In this document: piece by piece, positions 8,441-53,362 of the stretch | Numbering within the stretch: the stretch's first letter is position 1 | Layout of the letters: every line of letters starts with the position of its first letter | Source: Desulfocicer vacuolatum DSM 3385 | GTDB lineage: Bacteria > Desulfobacterota > Desulfobacteria > Desulfobacterales > Desulfobacteraceae | Assembly: GCF_900176365.1 (NCBI RefSeq) | Contig: NZ_FWXY01000005.1 | Coordinates: 1 to 64,000, forward strand | Reading direction: 5' to 3' | Length of the DNA stretch: 64,000 bases | Translations under genes and position numbers: made by a program | Notes under the pieces: model-generated | What the model saw: the letters and a program-made list of their open reading frames with translations, nothing else | Databases searched by the model: none | Told to the model about the DNA's origin: nothing

Positions 8441-8625
8441 TATGAAAAGGCAAGCTAAGGCGAGCCGCCCCCCGACGGGCAATAGGAACCGGACAATTGA
8501 GCTGTCTACAGTTCCGGTCCGGGACCATTGCCCGTTGGGGGGCGGCGGTATAATACCATTTGGCTTCGCGTCTACGACCCTATGTTTGTTGTGGGCAGAT
8601 CGGGATCGGAATAAGGTGATCTGTC
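8441..8625. repeat. Family A repeat, locus b (core + S)
   Basis: Core hairpin in orientation 1 followed by a diverged side hairpin, ending one base before the stop codon of the TonB receptor gene. The stem arms are the GC-rich blocks around 8462 and 8540. The TATAAT of the core is preceded by a 6-G tract, giving a 15-base spacer from TTGCCC, the shortest among the copies. As a long hairpin just after a stop codon it may also act as a terminator for the receptor gene. Confidence 0.9.
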
Positions 8626-42715: not shown

Positions 42716-44389
42716 TTGAACATAAGCGGAATTATATTTCAAACACTTGGTGGGTTGGGGCTTTTTATCCTTGGCATGAAAATGATGACCGAAGGATTAC
42801 AGGCCGCAGCTGGACAGAAAATTCGAGGCATTCTTGAAGCCATTTCATCCAATCGTTTCTTAGGATGTCTCACCGGGGCCGGTGTTACGGCCATGGTTCA
42901 ATCTTCATCTGCCACCACGGTGATGCTCATCGGTTTTGTCAGCGCCGGTATCATGTCCCTGGAAAATGCCGTGGGGGTGGTCATTGGTGCCAATGTGGGC
43001 ACCACCATTACAGGACAGATGATCGCCTTTAAATTAACCAAAGTAGCCCTGCCTGCCATTGCCGTGGGTGTGGGGTTAAAATATTTTTCCAAGGAACGGA
43101 ATTTTCGCCACATCGGGGATGTGGTATTGGGATTCGGTCTTTTGTTTTACGGCATGACCGTGATGAAGCAGGGTCTTGCCCCCATTAAAACAGACCCGCA
43201 GTTCATCTCTTTTTTCACCACTTTTTCCACGGACAGCATGCTGGGCATCCTTTTATGCGTTGGCATGGGGGCGCTGCTGACAGTGATGGTGCAATCGTCT
43301 TCAGCCACTGTTGGCTTGACCATGACCCTTGCCACATCCGGTCTTTTGGAATTTCCCACAGCCATGGCCCTGGTGCTTGGAGAAAACATCGGTACCACCA
43401 TTACAGCCCAGCTTGCCACCATTGGCTCAAAAAATATCGAAGCCCATCAGACCGCCAATGCCCATACCGTGTTTAATGTGGCCGGGGTGGGTATTATTCT
43501 TTTAATATTTCCCGTCTTTGTCAATACAGTGCAGACCTTGTCTTTGAAAATAGGTGCAGGCCCTGTGGATTTGTTAGTTGATGGAGAGTACGTGAATGCG
43601 GCCCGGTATATTGCCAACGGTCACACCCTTTTTAATGTGATCAATGCGGCCATTTTTTTGATAATTTTACCCCGACTGGTGCAGTTGACCATTTTTATCT
43701 CTCCCAAGAAAAAGGCTAAAAAGGAAAGATATCAGATACCTGAATTTGACGCTCGTTTTATGGATTCTCCCATTGCTGCCCTGGCAAGGGTCAAAGGCGA
43801 AATTATCCGCATGGCAGATTTTGCACATATGGGTCTGAGAAAAACATCCACCTGCCTCAAGGTACGGGATGATGATATTCTGGGTGAGCGGGAGGCCATA
43901 GAAGATCATCTGGACTCTTTTCAAAAGGTGATCATTAAATATCTTATCACCATATCCCAGGGAGAAATCAACGCACCGGAATCAAAAGAGATTTCAGAAA
44001 TGATGCGCATTACCAATAATATTGAACGTCTGGGGGACACCATGGAAAACGTTTCCAGGACCCTTGAAAAAATCTATGACCAGGGATTTCAGTTCAGTGA
44101 TGCCGCCATTAAAGATCTTGTGGAGATTTCCGATGAGGTGGACCGTTTCATGGGATTTGTCATACGGGAAATGAACGAAAAAACCGAAGGGTTTTACCAA
44201 AAAGCCCTGGCCCAGGAAGACCTCATTGACCAAATGCGGGAAAAAATGCGTGAAAAACATATTAAACGCTTACAGGTCAGCAGCTGTTCCGTTGACACCG
44301 GAGTGCTGTTTGTGGCACTGATCTCCTATTATGAGAAGATGGGGGATTATTGTTATAACATTGCCACCGGGGTTAATCGGATTTTATAG
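42716..44389 (+). CDS. Na/Pi cotransporter family protein with C-terminal PhoU-like domain
   Basis: 557 residues, TTG start with GGGAGA five bases upstream. The two inverted Na/Pi-cotransporter repeats show the diagnostic QSSSAT signatures ('VQSSSATTVMLIGFVSAG', 'VQSSSATVGLTMTLATSG') and 'GANVGTTITGQ' / 'GENIGTTITAQ'. About eight membrane segments are followed by a helical PhoU-like domain (from about residue 345). The protein likely takes up phosphate with sodium in the inner membrane; the PhoU part may regulate it. Stand-alone gene, convergent with oleB. Confidence 0.93.
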   Translation: MNISGIIFQTLGGLGLFILGMKMMTEGLQAAAGQKIRGILEAISSNRFLGCLTGAGVTAMVQSSSATTVMLIGFVSAGIMSLENAVGVVIGANVGTTITGQMIAFKLTKVALPAIAVGVGLKYFSKERNFRHIGDVVLGFGLLFYGMTVMKQGLAPIKTDPQFISFFTTFSTDSMLGILLCVGMGALLTVMVQSSSATVGLTMTLATSGLLEFPTAMALVLGENIGTTITAQLATIGSKNIEAHQTANAHTVFNVAGVGIILLIFPVFVNTVQTLSLKIGAGPVDLLVDGEYVNAARYIANGHTLFNVINAAIFLIILPRLVQLTIFISPKKKAKKERYQIPEFDARFMDSPIAALARVKGEIIRMADFAHMGLRKTSTCLKVRDDDILGEREAIEDHLDSFQKVIIKYLITISQGEINAPESKEISEMMRITNNIERLGDTMENVSRTLEKIYDQGFQFSDAAIKDLVEISDEVDRFMGFVIREMNEKTEGFYQKALAQEDLIDQMREKMREKHIKRLQVSSCSVDTGVLFVALISYYEKMGDYCYNIATGVNRIL

Positions 44390-44439
44390 AACCACCATAG
44401 GTGAAGTCTGCCTGACCCAGAATGATGTAAGACTATCCT

Positions 44440-45351
44440 TTATGTTTCCATAAATTTTTTTATTAATGCTGTACTTTCCCCGGGTTTGTCCTCAAAAAGG
44501 TAATGTCCGGCATCATCAAACAGATGCACCGGTACCCGGGGAAACCGCAGTTTCCATTCGTTTAAAAACGAAAGATCAAAAACAAAATCATGGCGCCCCC
44601 AAAGAATCATCATGGGGATTTTTTCCAATTGCTGGAGGTTGTCCTCCACCTTTTTGACCAGGGCATAACTTTCATCCCGGGGGGATAGGGGGATATCCTG
44701 GACAAATTTCAGGGTGGCAATTCTGTTTTTCCAGGAATCATAGGGAGCGGTTAAGCCTTGTTTTATCTGCTTTGAAAGGGGAAAACGAGGGGCCATGTAA
44801 AGAGCCGCCCAAGAGAAAATATTGCCTGCCTGAACCGCAGGAATGGCAAAGGGGGCAAGATACTTTAAAAGCCACAGTCTCAATGGAAATTTTTTTCCCC
44901 GGGGCAGAAAAAAGCCGGAGGTGTTTGTGATGACAATGCGGTCCACACGATCCAGGTGATCCAGGGCCCAGGCAAGACCGATCATTCCCCCCCAGTCATG
45001 GACAATCAGGGAAATTTTTTCAGTGAGGTTTAATTTATTTATCAGAGTATCAAGATCCTCCACCCGGGATTGAAGGGTGTATTGGTACGCATTGGCATCG
45101 GGCTTGTCAGAAAATCCACACCCAATATGATCCGGCACAATGGTGCGGTGATTCGGTGACAACGCTTTTACCAGGTGACGATAGTAAAAAGACCAGGTGG
45201 GGTTGCCATGCACCATGAGTACTGGAGGACCGCTGCCCTCATCCAGATAGTAAAGCGCATGGCCCCGGGTATTTACATGCTTGGGCTTAAAGGGATAAAG
45301 AGATGCAAACTTTTGGGTGGACAGCACTTTCCCATTGATATTACGTTCCAT
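44440..45351 (-). CDS. oleB: OleB-like alpha/beta hydrolase (beta-lactone decarboxylase)
   Basis: 303 residues of the haloalkane-dehalogenase-like hydrolase family. The oxyanion segment is 'VHGNPTWSFYYRHL', the nucleophile Asp119 sits in 'HDWGG', and the catalytic His is near 283 in 'DAGHYLFED'. OleB opens and decarboxylates the beta-lactone made by OleC to give a cis-alkene. The 15-base gap to oleA upstream, with AAAGGA before the ATG, places it in the pfaC-oleA-oleB operon. Without context it could pass for a haloalkane dehalogenase. The oleA neighbour and an oleC in the window favour OleB. Confidence 0.83.
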   Translation of the reverse strand: MERNINGKVLSTQKFASLYPFKPKHVNTRGHALYYLDEGSGPPVLMVHGNPTWSFYYRHLVKALSPNHRTIVPDHIGCGFSDKPDANAYQYTLQSRVEDLDTLINKLNLTEKISLIVHDWGGMIGLAWALDHLDRVDRIVITNTSGFFLPRGKKFPLRLWLLKYLAPFAIPAVQAGNIFSWAALYMAPRFPLSKQIKQGLTAPYDSWKNRIATLKFVQDIPLSPRDESYALVKKVEDNLQQLEKIPMMILWGRHDFVFDLSFLNEWKLRFPRVPVHLFDDAGHYLFEDKPGESTALIKKFMET

Positions 45352-45366
45352 AATTTTCCTTTATTA

Positions 45367-46419
45367 TCACCATTCAATGCCCATCATAAGGCAATTCAGA
45401 CCAGATCCAATCCCCATAAATCCCACATAATCACCGGATTTTAAAAATCCCCGTTCATGCGCAATGGCAGCGGTCATGGGCAGGGACACTGTGCCCATGT
45501 TTCCCAGATAGGGAAAGGTGGAATAATCTTTTTTCGGATCAATATTCATGATTTTGTGAAACATCTTCTGGTGGGTGGACCCCACTTGATGACAGATGAA
45601 CTTGTCAGGCATGTTGTTGGGGATATCCATTTCCCGGGTGAAATCTTCAAAGGTTTGTCTGGCCAGGGCAAGGCCGTTTTCCAATACCCCGTGAGCATTG
45701 GTACGCATCCGCACCGTGGCATGGGTGGGCATGCCCGATTCATTGAAGGTCCATCGACAAAGATCATGGAATCTATTGTCATGTCTCACCACCCCGCCTT
45801 TGAGGGTATGTCTGCTCTCCACATTATTTCCCAGGGTGCCGTCGGTGAGAAGGACGGCAGCAGCACCGGCACCGCCGGTCATGGTGGCAATGGTTTTGCT
45901 ATAGAACTCAACGGTTTTTTCCCGGTTTATCTCATCAATGGTGGCATCAACAATCTGTCTTGCTGTTTCACAGGAGACCACCAGCCCTGCCCGGATTTGT
46001 CCCAGTTCAATGGCATTGGCCACTTCCACCATGCCGGTGATCATGCCAAGACAGGCATTGGAAACATCATAAATATGAGCGGTGTTGCTTATTTTAAGCG
46101 CATCGGCAACAGCACAGGCCGTGGCAGGTTCAAATCCATCCCGCCCAACGCCGCAAAACACCAGCGCACCGATATCATCTGGAGAGACATCAGCTGCCGT
46201 CAGGGCCTTTTGCCCGGCCTTGGCCGATCCCTGGGCCAGGGTATGGTCCACATCCCAGAATCTTCGCTCTTTTATGCCGGTTAACACCTCCAGTTGCCCC
46301 ATTTTAAAGCCGGCTGACGTATAAAAGGGCTCAAGGCGTTTTTCTATCTCATCGGTGGTGATGACGTTGGGGGCCAGCTCATAGCCCAGCGCGTCAATAT
46401 ATACCTTGGAATATTTCAT
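45367..46419 (-). CDS. oleA: OleA-like thiolase (head-to-head acyl condensation)
   Basis: 350 residues of the thiolase/KAS III fold. The catalytic triad Cys123 ('SNACLGM'), His277 ('CHQVGSTHQ') and Asn307 ('LGNMGT') is present. Glu97 ('FEPATA') lies 26 residues before the Cys, the same spacing as Glu117-Cys143 of Xanthomonas OleA. That Glu is specific to OleA and absent from FabH. OleA joins two fatty acyl-CoAs to a beta-keto acid, the first step to olefins or ketones. The ATG overlaps the stop of the PfaC-like gene by four bases, so the two are translationally coupled, and OleB follows. The acyl donor could be the PfaC-type product; that is inference. Confidence 0.88.
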   Translation of the reverse strand: MKYSKVYIDALGYELAPNVITTDEIEKRLEPFYTSAGFKMGQLEVLTGIKERRFWDVDHTLAQGSAKAGQKALTAADVSPDDIGALVFCGVGRDGFEPATACAVADALKISNTAHIYDVSNACLGMITGMVEVANAIELGQIRAGLVVSCETARQIVDATIDEINREKTVEFYSKTIATMTGGAGAAAVLLTDGTLGNNVESRHTLKGGVVRHDNRFHDLCRWTFNESGMPTHATVRMRTNAHGVLENGLALARQTFEDFTREMDIPNNMPDKFICHQVGSTHQKMFHKIMNIDPKKDYSTFPYLGNMGTVSLPMTAAIAHERGFLKSGDYVGFMGIGSGLNCLMMGIEW

Positions 46420-49400
46420 CTATTGCTCCAGAAATTTTCAATTTCCCGGCGGGAAAGTCCCACCAGTTTCATTCCCATGTTTTTATATAATACAATCCTG
46501 TGATCATCGGAGAACATATGGGCATCTGCCACCACAAAGGGTTCAGGGTCATATCCCATTGTTTTGATTTCTATTTCATATCGTGCTTTGCGGGTTTCCG
46601 GGGTGACCGGTCCCCGGCATTTAAGATCGCTTTCCATGCCGGGAATGATATCGTAATGCACATCATCTCCTTGGGAGATCCAGCCCACACGCTGGGTGAA
46701 AATTCTAAGGGCATGGGCACAGCACTCATACATCAGGGTGCCGGGCATCACCTTGTCATCCACAAAATGGCAGGTAAGAAACCAGTCATCAGGGTGGATA
46801 TCTGCTTCGGCAATGATCAGGCCAAGACCAAAACGCCCTCCAGCAGGGTCAAATGAGACAACCCGGTCAATAAGGTGCATGCGCCCCCCGGGCAGGCGTA
46901 ATTTTTTACCCAGAACAACACCTTCAAATATGGAGCCAAAACAGGCTGCCAGGTCCCCTTGACGCAGGGCTTCCACCTGGGTTTTGGTGTATTGTTCTTT
47001 TTGCACCGGCACAGGAATCTGAAAATCACAAATACGGGTATCCTTGGCAATTTCTTCTTTTTTAAGAATAATCCCACCGGAGTTTTCCACCTCCAGGGGG
47101 GTGAAAAAACCGGCACATCCGTCCCGCATGGATATGAAAAGGGTGTTATCTATGTAGCCTTTATAATGAAAGAAAAACAGATAGACATCCCCCTGTTTTA
47201 AAAATCGATCAATGACAATATGATATTCTATGGTCTCACCGGGTTGGGGCAACGGACGATGAAAGGTGACCCTGGCATCCAGCAGTCGGTATCGTCGATG
47301 CCCCTTTACCTTATGATCAATCCCTAAAAAGGAGCAGAGAAAAAGATCTGCCTGGCCCGCTTCAATGGAGATGGACACCGGGGCTTTGCCACCGTCAAGG
47401 TACCAGGCATCGGGGTGAACATCGTGCTGGGTGATGATTTTACCCGGCCCCATGGACAACATTTCACCTTCTATGGCCATGATGCGGTCCACCAGCATCA
47501 GGGGTTCATCCGGAAGTCTCACCCGTACAGGATAGGTGTCAATGATATTAAATTTTTTCCCCAGTACGGCACCGGCATTTCCCACAGCAAAGGTCAAACA
47601 ATGGTGCCGGTCAAACAGCGGTTCTTTTCTTTTGGCTGGTGGAATATCTGTTGGTGCATGGATTTGTTCTGTTCTTTTTTCCCGGGATATTTCCACAGAA
47701 TGATCTGCATTTTTCCGGCCACTTGAATTGTCTTTATCTGGAAAGGGAGAAAAAACATTGTCTTCACAGGTAACATCCATGAAACCTCCCCGGGCCATGG
47801 GGTTCGTTTTCACCAGGGTGGAAGCCAGGTGGGTCAGGGTATTGAATTGTGTTTCAAGGGCCTTTGTGTTTTCCTGGGATAGTTCAAGGAATTTCATGTG
47901 GGCCTTTTCAGTGGCAGTAATGGATTGTGCAAGGCCGTTACCGGAAAAATTTCCAGAAGCGACGGCATCTGAAGAGTTCCGGGAAAAGGATTGGATGGCA
48001 CCCTGGGAACGTGAATCTCTTTGGGGTAATGTGGTTCCGGAGTGAAGTTGTTTGTCCCGATTTTGCGGTGCCTTTATCCGTTCATGGGGTAAGGGCAGGG
48101 GGATAAATTTATCTGACGGAAAGCCATGGGCCTTTAAAATAATTTTATTTTCAGGAGAAATCGCCGGTGTCGTATTTTTTTCCCCGGCTTTTTTTGCGGT
48201 GTCAGCCAGGGCTGTGATTCCCATGGGGGGGGATTTAAGTATCACGTGGCCACAGGCACCGTCCCGGGTGACGCTTGCCACGCAGGCATGCACCGCTTTA
48301 TTTGTGGGGACATGACTGATCCATGGGGGTGGGGTGACAGGTGAGCGTGGGACCCCGTTTTCCCGGGAAGTGCCATGGCCCATGGATATGATATCTGTTT
48401 CCATGCCGGGAGTTAATCCATGGTAAAGGGCAAGGGATGCCTGAACCGTGGAAACAAGTCCGGAAATACCAAAGGTATGGCCCAGGGTATCACAGGAAGC
48501 CCCCATGGAGGGCACTTGGGTTCTTTTTTTGGGGGATTGATGCAGCTTTTTTAATATATCCATTTCCATGGAACGGCAGGCGCCACACCCCTGGATCATA
48601 TGAAATTCAATGTTTGAGAAAGAAAGATTTCCCCGGTCCAGGGTCGTTTTAAGGCTGGTTTCATAGGCTTTTTCCAGGACGGGGCTGGACAAGGATGGGC
48701 CTTCGGCGGCCATTTCCCCCCCACAGGTACCACCGGTGGCGGTGATGACACTGTAGATATTGTCCTTATCTGCCATGGCTTTTTCCAGGGACTTCAGCAC
48801 CACGGCCACGGCCCCTTCGGACCAGGAGGGCTCCTTTGGGGGGCTGTTTTTCAGGTCAGTATTCCGGCAATGATCTTGGGTGGCAAGACACCGGGCAAGC
48901 AGTGTTTGTCGCAGATCCCCGGCCATGTCCACGGCCCCGCAAAGAAAAATATCGGTCTCGTTGGCTTCAATGGCATTGATTCCCACTTCCAGGGCCTTTA
49001 AACCGGAGTTTGCATCGGCGGACAGGGTAAAGCAGGGGCCGCCCAGCTGAAATTCCCTGGCAATACGACTGGCCACAATGCCCCCCAGGGCCCCCAGTGT
49101 TTTGTTGGCTGTAAGGGAGGGGAGGGGCAATGCCCCATGGGATGCATTCGGCTGTGCTTTGCCATGCCGTTGCAGCCAGCCAAGATGGAAATCTGTGGCC
49201 CCATGATCAAACTCAATGCCAATGGCCGCACCAAACCGGTTTCTAAGGGCCTGTTTTTTGTTGGGACGGAGGGAAATACCGGCATCTTTCATGGCAGTCA
49301 TGGCAGCTTTGAGCATCATCAGATGCTGGGAGAGAAGATCCGGGATCTGGTTGGGGGGAATATGGAACTCCCCGGCAAAGGTGTGGATCTCATCCATCCA

Positions 49401-51101
49401 CTGGCCGATTGTGCCGTGGCAAAGGGATTCCGGGATGGGCGTGGTCTTTTTCTGCCCGGGGGATATCATTAACTGTGCCAGGGCATCAATGTCTTCTGCT
49501 CCGGGGGTGATCAATGCCATGCCTACGATGGCAACTCCATGGGATTGGGCGTTCTGATTTTTTTTATCGGGGGAGCTGTCCATGGAATGATCGGCATCAA
49601 TATTGTGCTGCCATGGCGGTACATCCCCGCCATTGCCATGGGGGGCAGATGCGGCCAAGGATCGGGAACGGTCTTGGAGCCTGTTTTTTTTGTCCGTATG
49701 GGCAAAGAGAGCGTTGGCAGTATAATAAAAGGCGGGAATCTCTTTTCGGTATTCTTCCACCAGAATATGAGCATTAATGCCGCCAAATCCAAAGGCACTG
49801 ACGCCCGCCCGTCGGGCCATGGCAATGGATTTATCCCGGGAAAGGGAACAGGGAATCCAGGGCTCAGGATCTGTCTGCACCCGGAAGGGGGTTTGATAAA
49901 GCGGGCTGTTTTTCGGGGGGGCCGTGAAGTTCAGTGAGGGGGGAAGTTGTTTTGTTTTCATGGCCATGAGGGTTTTAATAAATCCGGCAGCCCCGGCAGC
50001 GGTGAGCAGATGCCCCACCATGGATTTAACCGAACCAATGGCACAGGTAAGGTTATTATCTCCGGTAATACCGGCATTTTCCCACAAGGTCTTCATGGAG
50101 TTTAGTTCAACTCCGTCCCCCACCGGTGTGGCAGAGCCGTGACACTCAATGTGCTGCACATCTTTGGGGGACCACCCGGCCTGTTGATAGGCCGCTGCCA
50201 TGGCCCGGATTTGACCGTCGGAAGAGGGGGCCACAAGGTTGCCGCCAATGTCGTTGGACCACCCCGTGCCGGTGATGACGCCGTGGATGGTGTCTTGGCA
50301 GGCCAGGGCATCTGTCATGCGCTTTAAAACCACCATGCCGGTGCCTTCCCCCACCACAAGGCCGTCTGCCTGTTGGTCAAAGGGAGCGCATCGCCCTGAA
50401 GGAGAAAGGGCTTTTAACTGGGTAAATCCAACCTGGGTATAGAGAGAATCCGGGCGGGAAACACCGCCGGCGATCATCATGTCTGTCCGGCCCAGGGCAA
50501 GCTGATCGCAGGCAAGTTTGATGGCAAAAAGAGAGGATGCACAGGCCGCATCCAAAGTAAAACAACCGCCATGGAGTCCCATGGCCCGTGCCAGAAGTGC
50601 TGCCGGTACAGACACCACCCCGGCTGCCAGGGCCTGGGCCCGGGTCAACGCATCCCCACGGTGCTCCATGATCACCTGGCGGGCAATATCCGAGGTGCAT
50701 TGGGTGGGAAGGGCAATGGCTGCAAGGATCACCCCTGTTTTTGCCTTGATCTGTTCCGGGCAATGGCAATGGGACAAGGCCCGCTGCCCTGCGGAAAGCA
50801 CCAGGTGATGCAGGGGATCAAGGGCTGATAATAGATCCGGTGACAGGGTAAAGCCATGGGGATCAAAGATGAAATCCGTGATCAATCCCGCCCGTTTTGA
50901 GGCAACGGTGTCCGGCCGGTATACGGTGGAATGGGCCTGTTCCGGTGGAATGTCCCATCGACCGGGGGGCACGTCAATGACAGCTTCTTTTTTTGCCATG
51001 ATATTCCGGCTGAAGGTGTCCACATCTGGGGCTCCGGGGAAAATTCCGGAAATACCCACAACTGCTATTTTTTCTCTATGTAAAGTCATAACCCCAACCA
51101 T
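46416..51101 (-). CDS. PfaC-like polyunsaturated lipid synthase subunit (KS-CLF-DH-DH)
   Basis: 1561 residues. KS domain at about 10-450 has Cys187 ('LDAACASSL'), His321 ('ECHGSATPVGD') and His364 ('KSMVGHLLTAAG'). A second KS-like domain at about 522-960 has Ala697 where the Cys should be ('TLSADANSG'), the mark of a chain-length factor. A poorly conserved linker follows. Two FabA-like dehydratase domains end the protein: DH1 from about 1215 ('DAWYLDGGKAPVSISIEAGQ') and DH2 with the classic 'CHFVDDKVMPG' loop (His about 1445). This order is that of PfaC from PUFA synthases, though shorter than the roughly 1950-2000 residues I recall. No PfaA, PfaB or PfaD is in the window. First gene of an operon with oleA and oleB. 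An alternative start is M5 at 51089. Confidence 0.88.
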   Translation of the reverse strand: MVGVMTLHREKIAVVGISGIFPGAPDVDTFSRNIMAKKEAVIDVPPGRWDIPPEQAHSTVYRPDTVASKRAGLITDFIFDPHGFTLSPDLLSALDPLHHLVLSAGQRALSHCHCPEQIKAKTGVILAAIALPTQCTSDIARQVIMEHRGDALTRAQALAAGVVSVPAALLARAMGLHGGCFTLDAACASSLFAIKLACDQLALGRTDMMIAGGVSRPDSLYTQVGFTQLKALSPSGRCAPFDQQADGLVVGEGTGMVVLKRMTDALACQDTIHGVITGTGWSNDIGGNLVAPSSDGQIRAMAAAYQQAGWSPKDVQHIECHGSATPVGDGVELNSMKTLWENAGITGDNNLTCAIGSVKSMVGHLLTAAGAAGFIKTLMAMKTKQLPPSLNFTAPPKNSPLYQTPFRVQTDPEPWIPCSLSRDKSIAMARRAGVSAFGFGGINAHILVEEYRKEIPAFYYTANALFAHTDKKNRLQDRSRSLAASAPHGNGGDVPPWQHNIDADHSMDSSPDKKNQNAQSHGVAIVGMALITPGAEDIDALAQLMISPGQKKTTPIPESLCHGTIGQWMDEIHTFAGEFHIPPNQIPDLLSQHLMMLKAAMTAMKDAGISLRPNKKQALRNRFGAAIGIEFDHGATDFHLGWLQRHGKAQPNASHGALPLPSLTANKTLGALGGIVASRIAREFQLGGPCFTLSADANSGLKALEVGINAIEANETDIFLCGAVDMAGDLRQTLLARCLATQDHCRNTDLKNSPPKEPSWSEGAVAVVLKSLEKAMADKDNIYSVITATGGTCGGEMAAEGPSLSSPVLEKAYETSLKTTLDRGNLSFSNIEFHMIQGCGACRSMEMDILKKLHQSPKKRTQVPSMGASCDTLGHTFGISGLVSTVQASLALYHGLTPGMETDIISMGHGTSRENGVPRSPVTPPPWISHVPTNKAVHACVASVTRDGACGHVILKSPPMGITALADTAKKAGEKNTTPAISPENKIILKAHGFPSDKFIPLPLPHERIKAPQNRDKQLHSGTTLPQRDSRSQGAIQSFSRNSSDAVASGNFSGNGLAQSITATEKAHMKFLELSQENTKALETQFNTLTHLASTLVKTNPMARGGFMDVTCEDNVFSPFPDKDNSSGRKNADHSVEISREKRTEQIHAPTDIPPAKRKEPLFDRHHCLTFAVGNAGAVLGKKFNIIDTYPVRVRLPDEPLMLVDRIMAIEGEMLSMGPGKIITQHDVHPDAWYLDGGKAPVSISIEAGQADLFLCSFLGIDHKVKGHRRYRLLDARVTFHRPLPQPGETIEYHIVIDRFLKQGDVYLFFFHYKGYIDNTLFISMRDGCAGFFTPLEVENSGGIILKKEEIAKDTRICDFQIPVPVQKEQYTKTQVEALRQGDLAACFGSIFEGVVLGKKLRLPGGRMHLIDRVVSFDPAGGRFGLGLIIAEADIHPDDWFLTCHFVDDKVMPGTLMYECCAHALRIFTQRVGWISQGDDVHYDIIPGMESDLKCRGPVTPETRKARYEIEIKTMGYDPEPFVVADAHMFSDDHRIVLYKNMGMKLVGLSRREIENFWSNR

Positions 51102-51256
51102 ATAATGGAGAAAAAAAGGAAATACAAGTAAGGGTAATTTAATATTAATTTATTTATATCTTAATTTGCATTTTGCCGAATAGTTGTTTGGTTGTTATTT
51201 TAATGCTTTATGCGTGTAAAGTATGTTGAAAATGTTTTTGTAAAAAAAATGTAAAC

Positions 51257-51365
51257 TTCAAGGCATGCCAAGGCAGAGCCGCCCTCCGATGGGCAATGGG
51301 AACCGGACAATTGAGCTGTCTACAGTTCCGGTCCGGGACCATTGCCGTGGGAGGGACGGCATAAT
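51257..51365. repeat. Family A repeat, locus l (decayed core)
   Basis: A core in orientation 1 lacking its right flank and any side module. The promoter-like part is mutated (TTGCCG … CATAAT). It lies between pfaC and the histidine kinase gene, a divergent region of about 415 bases otherwise without a supported gene. Confidence 0.82.
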
Positions 51366-51517
51366 GCAATTAAAATTAAATGTTATTATTTGTCCATCGT
51401 GGTTTCTTATTCGTATATTTCAACGGATTTTGTCTTGACGTCTTGATTTTCACGGTGATTCTGTGTAAGTATGTATTTACATTTAAGACGAACGATCAAC
51501 TCCACAGGATCAGTCAC

Positions 51518-53362
51518 ATGAAAGCAATTTTTTCATATCTTAAAGACAAACTTTTTTCCCACAAAAGCATCACCCTGGCACAATGGCAGGAAAAGAGTTT
51601 TGTATTTGTTCTTATGTGTATCTGTGTGGTATCCTTGTTTCCGCTGATTAACAGCTGCATCAGAGCTGCCGGAGACGGTTTGTGGGTGAATCTGACCTTG
51701 TATGTACTATCATATCTGTTATGCTTTTTTATCACTGTGGCTTGGTATCTCCCGTTTAAACTGCGGGCCTGGATGGGGGTTATGGTGTTATTTGGGCTTG
51801 GCTGTCTGGCTATGTTCTCCATTGGTCCCCTGGGCAGTGGACGAATATGGATGTTTTTTGCCTCGGTTTTTGCCACCCTGGTTCTGGGGATAAATTCAGG
51901 AATATTTGTTCTAACGCTACAACTGATTGTTCTGCTCTGCTTTACCCATCTTCTTAAAATCAACTTTTCCTTCTGGGCAAACCTTCAAACCTATTCCAGA
52001 GATATATGGGTGACCACTTCCATTACTTTCATGTTTTTGAGTATTATTTCGGTTGTGAGCATGGGGCGGTTAATCCGGGGGCTTTCACGTTCCCTTGAAC
52101 GTTCCCGAAAGACCGGTGAAGAGCTTAAAAAAACTGCCCGACAATTAAATCGGCAGATCCAGGCCCACCGTGGGACCATTGCCACCCTGAAAGAGATGGA
52201 AAAGGAGCGCATTAAATACGAAACCCGTATTCAACAGATGCAGAAAATGGAAGCCATCGGCTCCCTTGCCGGGGGAATTGCCCATGATTTTAATAATATA
52301 CTTTCTCCCATGATCGGGTATTCGGAAATGATCAAGGAAGAACTTGTGGATAAGCCTGAACTCCAGAGTAATCTGGATGAGGTCCTCAAGGCATCTGTCC
52401 GGGCCAAAAATCTTGTTGCTCAGATTTTATCTTTCAGTCGCCAGGAATCAGAAATTCGTCAGCCGGTGGCTGTGCAAAAAGTGGCCAGGGAGTGTTTAAA
52501 TTTACTTCGTTCAACCATTCCCAGAACCATTCACATTGAATCCATCATAGACACACAATGCGACAAGGTATTTGGTGATCCCACAAAACTACACCAGGTG
52601 ATGATGAATCTTGGCATCAACGCCTACCACGCCATGGAGTTAACCGGAGGAACCCTGTGGGTTATTTTTGAAGAAAGTCTGGTTGAAGAGGGATTTTGTC
52701 CCACCCCGGATCTTCCCCCCGGTCGCTATGGGTTACTGGTCTTCCGGGATACAGGGGAGGGCATGGATAAACAGATCCTTGAAAAAATATTTGATCCCCA
52801 TTTTACCACCAAAAGCAGGGGGAAAGGCTCGGGACTGGGACTTTCCGTGGTGAAATCCATCATTGAAGAGTTCAAAGGAAATATCAGGGTACAAAGTCAA
52901 AAGGGCGTGGGTACTGAATTTTGCATCTACTTTCCCCTCATGTCCGGGGAACAGCAAATTCAATTTGTACCCGAGGAGATCCCTATTCCCCGGGGCAATG
53001 AACATATTCTTCTGGTGGATGATGAAAAATCCGTTGCCTGCATGGCACATCAGATGTTGGAGCGCCTTGGGTATCATGTGACCATGACAACTGCCGGTGA
53101 TGATGCCCTGCAGATATTTTCCCGAACACCTTCGGATTTTGATCTTTTGATTACAGATATGACCATGCCGCAAATGACCGGGGTGGAATTATTATCCCGT
53201 GCCCGGGCCATTCGGCAGAGTCTGCCGGTTATTTTATGCTCCGGGTTCAGTGATCAGGTCAATACTGAAAAGGCCCGGAAACTAAAATTCAATGCCTATC
53301 TGGATAAGCCTTTTTCACTCAGGAAAATTGGGGAAACCATTCGAGAGGTTTTGGATGAATGA
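51518..53362 (+). CDS. Hybrid sensor histidine kinase with C-terminal receiver domain
   Basis: 614 residues from the ATG at 51518, with AGGA about eight bases upstream; the ORF continues 46 residues further up without a ribosome-binding site. About six membrane helices (28-185) form the sensor with almost no periplasmic loop. A coiled-coil linker follows, then a HisKA-type domain with His256 in 'GGIAHDFNNIL'. The ATP-binding domain ('MNLGINAYHAM', 'DTGEGM', 'GSGLGLSVV') and a receiver (phospho-acceptor Asp547 in 'LLITDMTMPQ', Lys in 'YLDKPFS') complete it. The signal and the output partner are unknown; no response regulator gene adjoins. Confidence 0.93.
   Translation: MKAIFSYLKDKLFSHKSITLAQWQEKSFVFVLMCICVVSLFPLINSCIRAAGDGLWVNLTLYVLSYLLCFFITVAWYLPFKLRAWMGVMVLFGLGCLAMFSIGPLGSGRIWMFFASVFATLVLGINSGIFVLTLQLIVLLCFTHLLKINFSFWANLQTYSRDIWVTTSITFMFLSIISVVSMGRLIRGLSRSLERSRKTGEELKKTARQLNRQIQAHRGTIATLKEMEKERIKYETRIQQMQKMEAIGSLAGGIAHDFNNILSPMIGYSEMIKEELVDKPELQSNLDEVLKASVRAKNLVAQILSFSRQESEIRQPVAVQKVARECLNLLRSTIPRTIHIESIIDTQCDKVFGDPTKLHQVMMNLGINAYHAMELTGGTLWVIFEESLVEEGFCPTPDLPPGRYGLLVFRDTGEGMDKQILEKIFDPHFTTKSRGKGSGLGLSVVKSIIEEFKGNIRVQSQKGVGTEFCIYFPLMSGEQQIQFVPEEIPIPRGNEHILLVDDEKSVACMAHQMLERLGYHVTMTTAGDDALQIFSRTPSDFDLLITDMTMPQMTGVELLSRARAIRQSLPVILCSGFSDQVNTEKARKLKFNAYLDKPFSLRKIGETIREVLDE

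Follow-up and report, generated by a model that had tools for sequence, protein, structure and literature searches.

A PfaC-type subunit encoded next to OleA in Desulfocicer vacuolatum, and a candidate split Pfa synthase for a hydrocarbon pathway

In Geobacter bemidjiensis, one of the closest systems described so far, the genes pfaD, pfaA, pfaB, pfaC, oleA, oleB, oleC, oleD and pfaE lie in tandem and the organism produces C31:9 (PMC4882568), a cluster that Shulse and Allen list under Type I (PMC3098273). In the same survey, 44 of 80 genomes were reported to carry both pfa-like and ole genes, which were often linked to one another (PMC3098273). When Shewanella OleA was produced alongside PfaA-E in a fadD mutant of E. 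coli, a 31:8 ketone was formed, and acyl-ACP (acyl carrier protein) was inferred as the substrate (Allemann et al., PMC6463001). Here we analyse a stretch of 64,000 nucleotides from Desulfocicer vacuolatum DSM 3385 (contig NZ_FWXY01000005.1, positions 1 to 64,000; hereafter the window), where a PfaC-type megasynthase subunit is encoded directly before oleA. Quite probably, we think, a nearly complete Pfa-type synthase is divided between loci in this organism, and the window encodes one half of it along with the enzyme for the first step of an OleABCD hydrocarbon pathway. The pairing of PfaC with oleA was already known, and the novelty lies in the build of the synthase, whose second dehydratase (DH) pair has moved to an unlinked PfaA and whose PfaC has lost its acyltransferase (AT) domain.

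The PfaC-oleA-oleB locus and its conservation

The features considered are given below; KS stands for ketoacyl synthase and CLF for chain-length factor.

46416..51101, minus strand: PfaC-type megasynthase subunit, 1561 aa, KS-CLF-linker-DH1-DH2 (open reading frame, Pfam, KS tree)
49743..51074, minus strand: KS domain, PfaC residues 10-453, with Cys187 and His321 (Pfam, alignment)
48777..49535, minus strand: PF00109-matched part of the CLF, a second KS fold without the active-site Cys
47142..47516, minus strand: DH1, FabA-like half, with an invariant Glu1247 and, in our motif reading, no His at the usual position
46491..46895, minus strand: DH2, FabA-like half, with His1445 and Glu1459 (alignment of 59 sequences, the window among them)
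46416..46419, minus strand: ATGA shared by the stop of the megasynthase gene and the start of oleA
45367..46419, minus strand: oleA, thiolase-fold head-to-head condensing enzyme, 350 aa
44440..45351, minus strand: oleB, haloalkane-dehalogenase-like alpha/beta hydrolase, 303 aa
33125..34777, minus strand: oleC, homologue of the olefin beta-lactone synthetase, 550 aa

All the coordinates in the original prediction, made from the sequence of the window alone, hold for the KS-CLF-DH-DH protein, for the four bases that its stop shares with the oleA start and for oleB, which begins 15 bases past oleA; PfaC and OleA may be translated from one message. That prediction had missed oleC, which the window also contains, separated from oleB by ~9.7 kb that include genes on the opposite strand. 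From its context we take oleB to encode the beta-lactone decarboxylase.

On sequence grounds the 1561-residue protein is a PfaC-type KS-CLF subunit. Pfam finds two ketoacyl-synthase stretches followed by two FabA stretches, and alignment shows that the first KS retains Cys187 and His321 while the second reads SADANSG at the matching site, where the Cys is absent, so that an active-type KS precedes a CLF as in other members of the PfaC group. In the KS tree the window sequence falls within a clade of 19 PfaC KS domains (support 100/99), among them rows from Geomonas, Planctomycetales, Sumerlaeota and Elusimicrobia, and six PfaA KS rows form a separate clade with the same support; the PfaC-like identity proposed earlier is borne out by this placement. 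Both DH2 residues are invariant in all 59 aligned sequences, as is Glu1247 of DH1.

The protein encoded next reads as OleA and not as FabH, judging from model scores and structure matches. It reaches 449 bits against PRK09258 (cut-off 285) and 88 bits against the FabH model TIGR00747 (cut-off 292). Its best structure matches, 3row, 3s21, 4kti and others, align over nearly the full length with E-values of 1e-53 to 3e-52, and the next group of structures, named synthase 3, comes at 7e-16 or worse; a FabH assignment is ruled out by these results. The 3row, 3s21 and 4kti group, deposited under the name 3-oxoacyl-ACP synthase III, is presumably the Xanthomonas OleA. The residues Cys123, His277, Asn307 and Glu97, which had been singled out before, align to Cys, His, Asn and Glu in 3row.

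The pairing of PfaC with oleA is more than chance, as the same gene order turns up in many genomes. Our order-wide sample comprised 389 genomes, 76 of the window's family and 313 of other families. Gene order was compared at 40 OleA loci from the order (27 of the window's family, 13 of other families) and at 27 named loci, which are matches to a single-protein query and not a census, and four of which (L108, L110, L111 and L112) also count among the 27 family loci. Of the 389 genomes, 266 matched OleA (E<=1e-30) and 261 the DH pair of the window PfaC (E<=1e-20); 43 of the OleA matches are weaker than 1e-90 and may represent different thiolase-fold proteins. Within the family this DH pair lies upstream of oleA on the same strand at 25 of 27 loci; in 24 of these the genes overlap or stand no more than 158 bases apart, the remaining one (L083) having a 1.6-kb gap, and the exact four-base overlap is seen in 15 of the 25. 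The two misses are L064 and L063, whose ~670 bases of upstream contig show no match. PfaC precedes oleA also at 7 of the 13 loci from other families and at 26 of the 27 named loci, which belong to Desulfobacterales, Geomonas/Geobacter, Planctomycetales, Sumerlaeota and Elusimicrobia; the sole named miss (L114) has no PfaC match in 3.7 kb upstream. The arrangement is therefore old and common, and the comparison of relatives proposed at the outset confirms the pairing, although not the view that it would be unusual, as pfaC before oleA is also in print for G. bemidjiensis (PMC4882568). That the coupling of a synthase subunit with OleA has been kept over several phyla fits a direct hand-over of chains from the Pfa synthase to OleA. 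The distances of OleA and PfaC correlate as well (r 0.88 and 0.90, 41 loci), perhaps through shared ancestry alone, and we do not use this as proof.

Other observations concern the surroundings of these genes. In the family oleC lies within ~5 kb of oleA at 19 of 27 loci, and relatives encode between oleB and oleC a 262-aa protein (L068:11003-11791) with no Pfam match and, in our reading, one likely membrane helix; a further 15 of the 27 family loci match it, as does L096, and a search run with no positive control gave no match in the window genome. In three loci of genus g127 (L163, L164 and L167) the gene for a PfaBC-type protein stands immediately before oleB-oleC-oleD, oleA being absent from between them, and the OleA matches of those three genomes are weak (E ~1e-55). 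The window carries six copies of the 21-bp sequence GGCAATGGTCCCGGACCGGAA (at 8512, 16890, 20801, 25214, 28203 and 51326; up to 2 mismatches, 0 expected), which looks like a repetitive extragenic palindromic (REP)-type or terminator repeat; one copy sits in the 299-nt megasynthase leader, which folds with a z of -4.4. Rfam gave zero matches up to E 1 in 44000-51600.

A synthase split over unlinked loci

The partners of both pathways were found in the window genome (5.04 Mb, 80 contigs, 98.4% complete). On contig C42 a pfaD (630 bits, cut-off 449) is followed 282 bases further on by a gene for a 2711-aa PfaA (TIGR02813, 1405 bits, cut-off 1010) with the domains KS, AT, two ACPs, ketoreductase (KR), a polyketide synthase (PKS)-type DH and a second FabA-like DH pair. 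The phosphopantetheinyl transferase (PPTase) family has two matches in the genome, so that PfaA, PfaD and a PPTase candidate are all present, at loci unlinked to that of PfaC. The OleABCD set is likewise represented, with oleA, oleB and oleC (743 bits, cut-off 478) in the window and oleD on contig C44, 62% identical to OleD from an intact ole operon. The genome search suggested by the original prediction thus recovered PfaA with its two ACPs, PfaD and oleD, and no PfaB; the ideas of a stand-alone PfaC and of a minimal Pfa-type unit have to be abandoned. A second PfaC, whose presence beside a complete pfaABCD cluster would have spoken against the proposal, was not found in the genome, setting aside a KS-KS stretch that belongs to another megasynthase, encoded on contig C50. 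With oleC and oleD both at hand, a pathway lacking them and ending in a ketone is ruled out, and of the two products first proposed, ketone or hydrocarbon, the latter is the likelier.

The split becomes clearer when the DH pairs are followed across the order. In L086, from another family, a single 2311-aa protein with the order KS-CLF-AT-DH1-DH2-DH3-DH4 precedes oleA, its AT being below the Pfam cut-off, and frames with both DH pairs in other families mostly measure 2300-2500 aa where the contig is uncut. In the window's family, PfaC carries DH1-DH2 alone; the match to DH3-DH4 falls in the C-terminal part of PfaA, which is encoded at an unlinked locus in frames of 2500-2800 aa, or of ~1200 aa in one genus where PfaA is apparently split. 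The DH content is thus complementary, both pairs in one frame in other families and on two proteins in the window's, although genomes G017 and G082 of another family likewise have DH3-4 on PfaA. The KR and PKS-type DH of PfaA lie directly before PfaC on the same strand at 13 of the 27 named loci, and in L108 the pfaA end is found ~7 kb beyond oleA on one contig, facing oleA. An AT with GHSLG is retained at seven family loci (L059-L062 and L065-L067) and was undetected in the window PfaC and at the other 18 family loci with PfaC. As the window groups in the KS tree with the AT-bearing L059 and L061 (100/97), the AT probably disappeared on more than one occasion. No report of a DH transfer or of a family-wide FabZ loss was found in our searches of an open-access library, and Figure 1 of PMC3098273 may show the transfer. 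Such a displaced DH pair offers a natural test of the role of each pair in polyunsaturated fatty acid synthases.

In the proposed mechanism, PfaA and the enoyl reductase PfaD from the other contig would pair with the window PfaC, the acyl chain growing on the ACPs of PfaA. PfaC would contribute KS-CLF and the first DH pair, and PfaA the second FabA-like pair. OleA, presumably made from the message of PfaC, would then take two acyl-ACP chains and condense them head to head, and from the resulting beta-keto acid OleD, OleC and OleB would produce a long internal alkene, which by analogy would be polyunsaturated and of about C31. That Pfa-made chains serve OleA has been shown with Shewanella proteins, from which the acyl transfer to OleA was also inferred (PMC6463001); this part of the original prediction stands, without the minimal unit that was to feed OleA.

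Several facts weigh against this scheme. PfaC has no AT (PfaB) domain and no separate AT gene was found in the window genome, where an AT from another megasynthase may act in trans. With the narrow, olefin-specific NCBIfam models, OleC and OleD stay under the cut-off (625/850 and 595/900; 414/580), and the window CLF sits on a long branch (1.07). Moreover, oleA occurs without this PfaC upstream at 6 of the 13 other-family loci and at L064, and P. profundum SS9 contains both operons with no detectable hydrocarbon (PMC6463001). The lost AT, the split cluster and the fast-changing CLF could even be taken as signs that the Pfa genes are a decaying remnant, with OleA working on other acyl thioesters; a review called the pfa genes of Desulfobacterium autotrophicum possible remnants (PMC4882568), and the PfaC DH pair of the relatives G176 and G269 gives a match broken into two pieces. 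We regard such decay as very improbable, given that the KS keeps its Cys and His, that the DH2 residues do not vary, and that OleA (E<=1e-90) and both the PfaC and PfaA DH pairs (E<=1e-20) are found together in 60 of 76 family genomes and in 42 of the 44 that are at least 95% complete.

Type II fatty acid synthesis in the family

In the window genome PF00109 matched four megasynthase loci and a 389-aa KS beside bioF/bioD-like genes (bio names, including BioB, are our reading of the sequences), the only KS outside megasynthases, with 277 bits against the FabF model (cut-off 494); seven weaker matches are probably thiolases, judging from the region that they cover. AT domains are confined to megasynthases on C42, C50 and C62, in a search positive in 10 of 14 control genomes, and hence no FabD was found in the window genome. 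Matches to the FabA/FabZ fold are restricted to the window PfaC, PfaA and a 98-aa protein beside a BioB-like gene (controls 9 of 14). Across the order FabZ exceeds the curated cut-off in 253 of 389 genomes, and at E<=1e-30 it is seen in only 4 of 76 family genomes (G252, G350, G351 and G378) vs 256 of 313 others, a contrast with a Fisher p of 3e-37, uncorrected for kinship.

With no FabD and no ordinary FabZ or FabA found in this genome, membrane fatty acids are likely made by the Pfa synthase or by the C50 megasynthase, unless they are taken up, and one of these type I enzymes may be the main fatty acid synthase. The split Pfa synthase could thus be also, or mainly, a housekeeping enzyme replacing a lost type II system, OleA drawing on the general acyl-ACP pool, a serious possibility to which we give somewhat less than an even chance. 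The scarcity of KS, FabD and FabZ just described speaks for it, as does the earlier proposal that the Type S synthase of D. autotrophicum HRM2, where fabA/fabZ were reported missing, is the core synthase (Shulse and Allen 2011, PMC3098273). It is weakened by the fact that C50 could fill the same role, and by the scope of the searches, which among type II functions covered KS, FabD and the FabA/FabZ fold, FabD in the window genome only. Moreover, in six genomes of another family (f18, genus g106; G119, G147, G169, G185, G201 and G213) strong FabZ matches are missing, and at our thresholds so are matches to OleA and to the PfaC and PfaA DH pairs; in these genomes FabZ must be replaced by something else.

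The C50 protein, a candidate type I fatty acid synthase by its domain order, has 3907 aa arranged as ER (enoyl reductase)-KS-KS-AT-ACP3-KR-DH and is encoded near parA/parB (L099:78-11801). These domains would suffice for a self-contained synthase, and C50 (or C62) might make the main fatty acids, leaving the Pfa/Ole set to a secondary hydrocarbon, which we find possible but rather doubtful: the third KS-like stretch of C50 is weak and its DH is below the Pfam cut-off. The C1 ends (first 20 kb and last 40 kb in six family genomes, first 20 kb in two) matched neither ParB nor C50 and are hence uninformative.

Extended to the whole family, the split Pfa-type synthase would have replaced type II synthesis, and the encoding of its KS-CLF-DH subunit on one message with OleA would wire hydrocarbon synthesis into the core synthase, a proposal that we advance tentatively and with more doubt than conviction. 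If type II synthesis is indeed gone, the synthase would be essential instead of 'secondary', with a bearing on the lipid biomarkers of sulfate reducers, and this possible loss is the part most worth pursuing.

Comparison with known systems

Among described synthases, the Type S enzyme of D. autotrophicum HRM2 belongs to an organism of the same NCBI family, Desulfobacteraceae, and may share the architecture of the window synthase. In a metagenome-assembled genome (L115) that bears the label Desulforapulum autotrophicum, a short PfaC with two DH domains lies 6 bases before oleA; the OleA of L115 is only 55% identical to that of the window, and the label is possibly wrong.

With Shewanella the window genome shares PfaC and OleA, and the Shewanella hydrocarbon requires both pathways (PMC6463001). 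In S. oneidensis, PfaC is described as having four FabA-like DH domains, alongside a PfaB encoded separately (PMC4882568). The notation of Shulse and Allen for this PfaC is KS-CLF-DH2 (PMC3098273), where we take each DH to stand for one pair. The PfaC of the window genome differs in having a single pair, that is two FabA-like domains only, and PfaB is absent.

G. bemidjiensis is an obligate anaerobe which equally has a PfaC-type protein directly before oleA, OleABCD and Pfa partners. Its genes form a tandem cluster, whereas those of the window genome are split over several loci and the AT is absent; moreover, the Geomonas/Geobacter loci compared here carry both DH pairs and an AT-like stretch on one protein, whereas in D. 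vacuolatum one pair is on PfaC and the other on PfaA.

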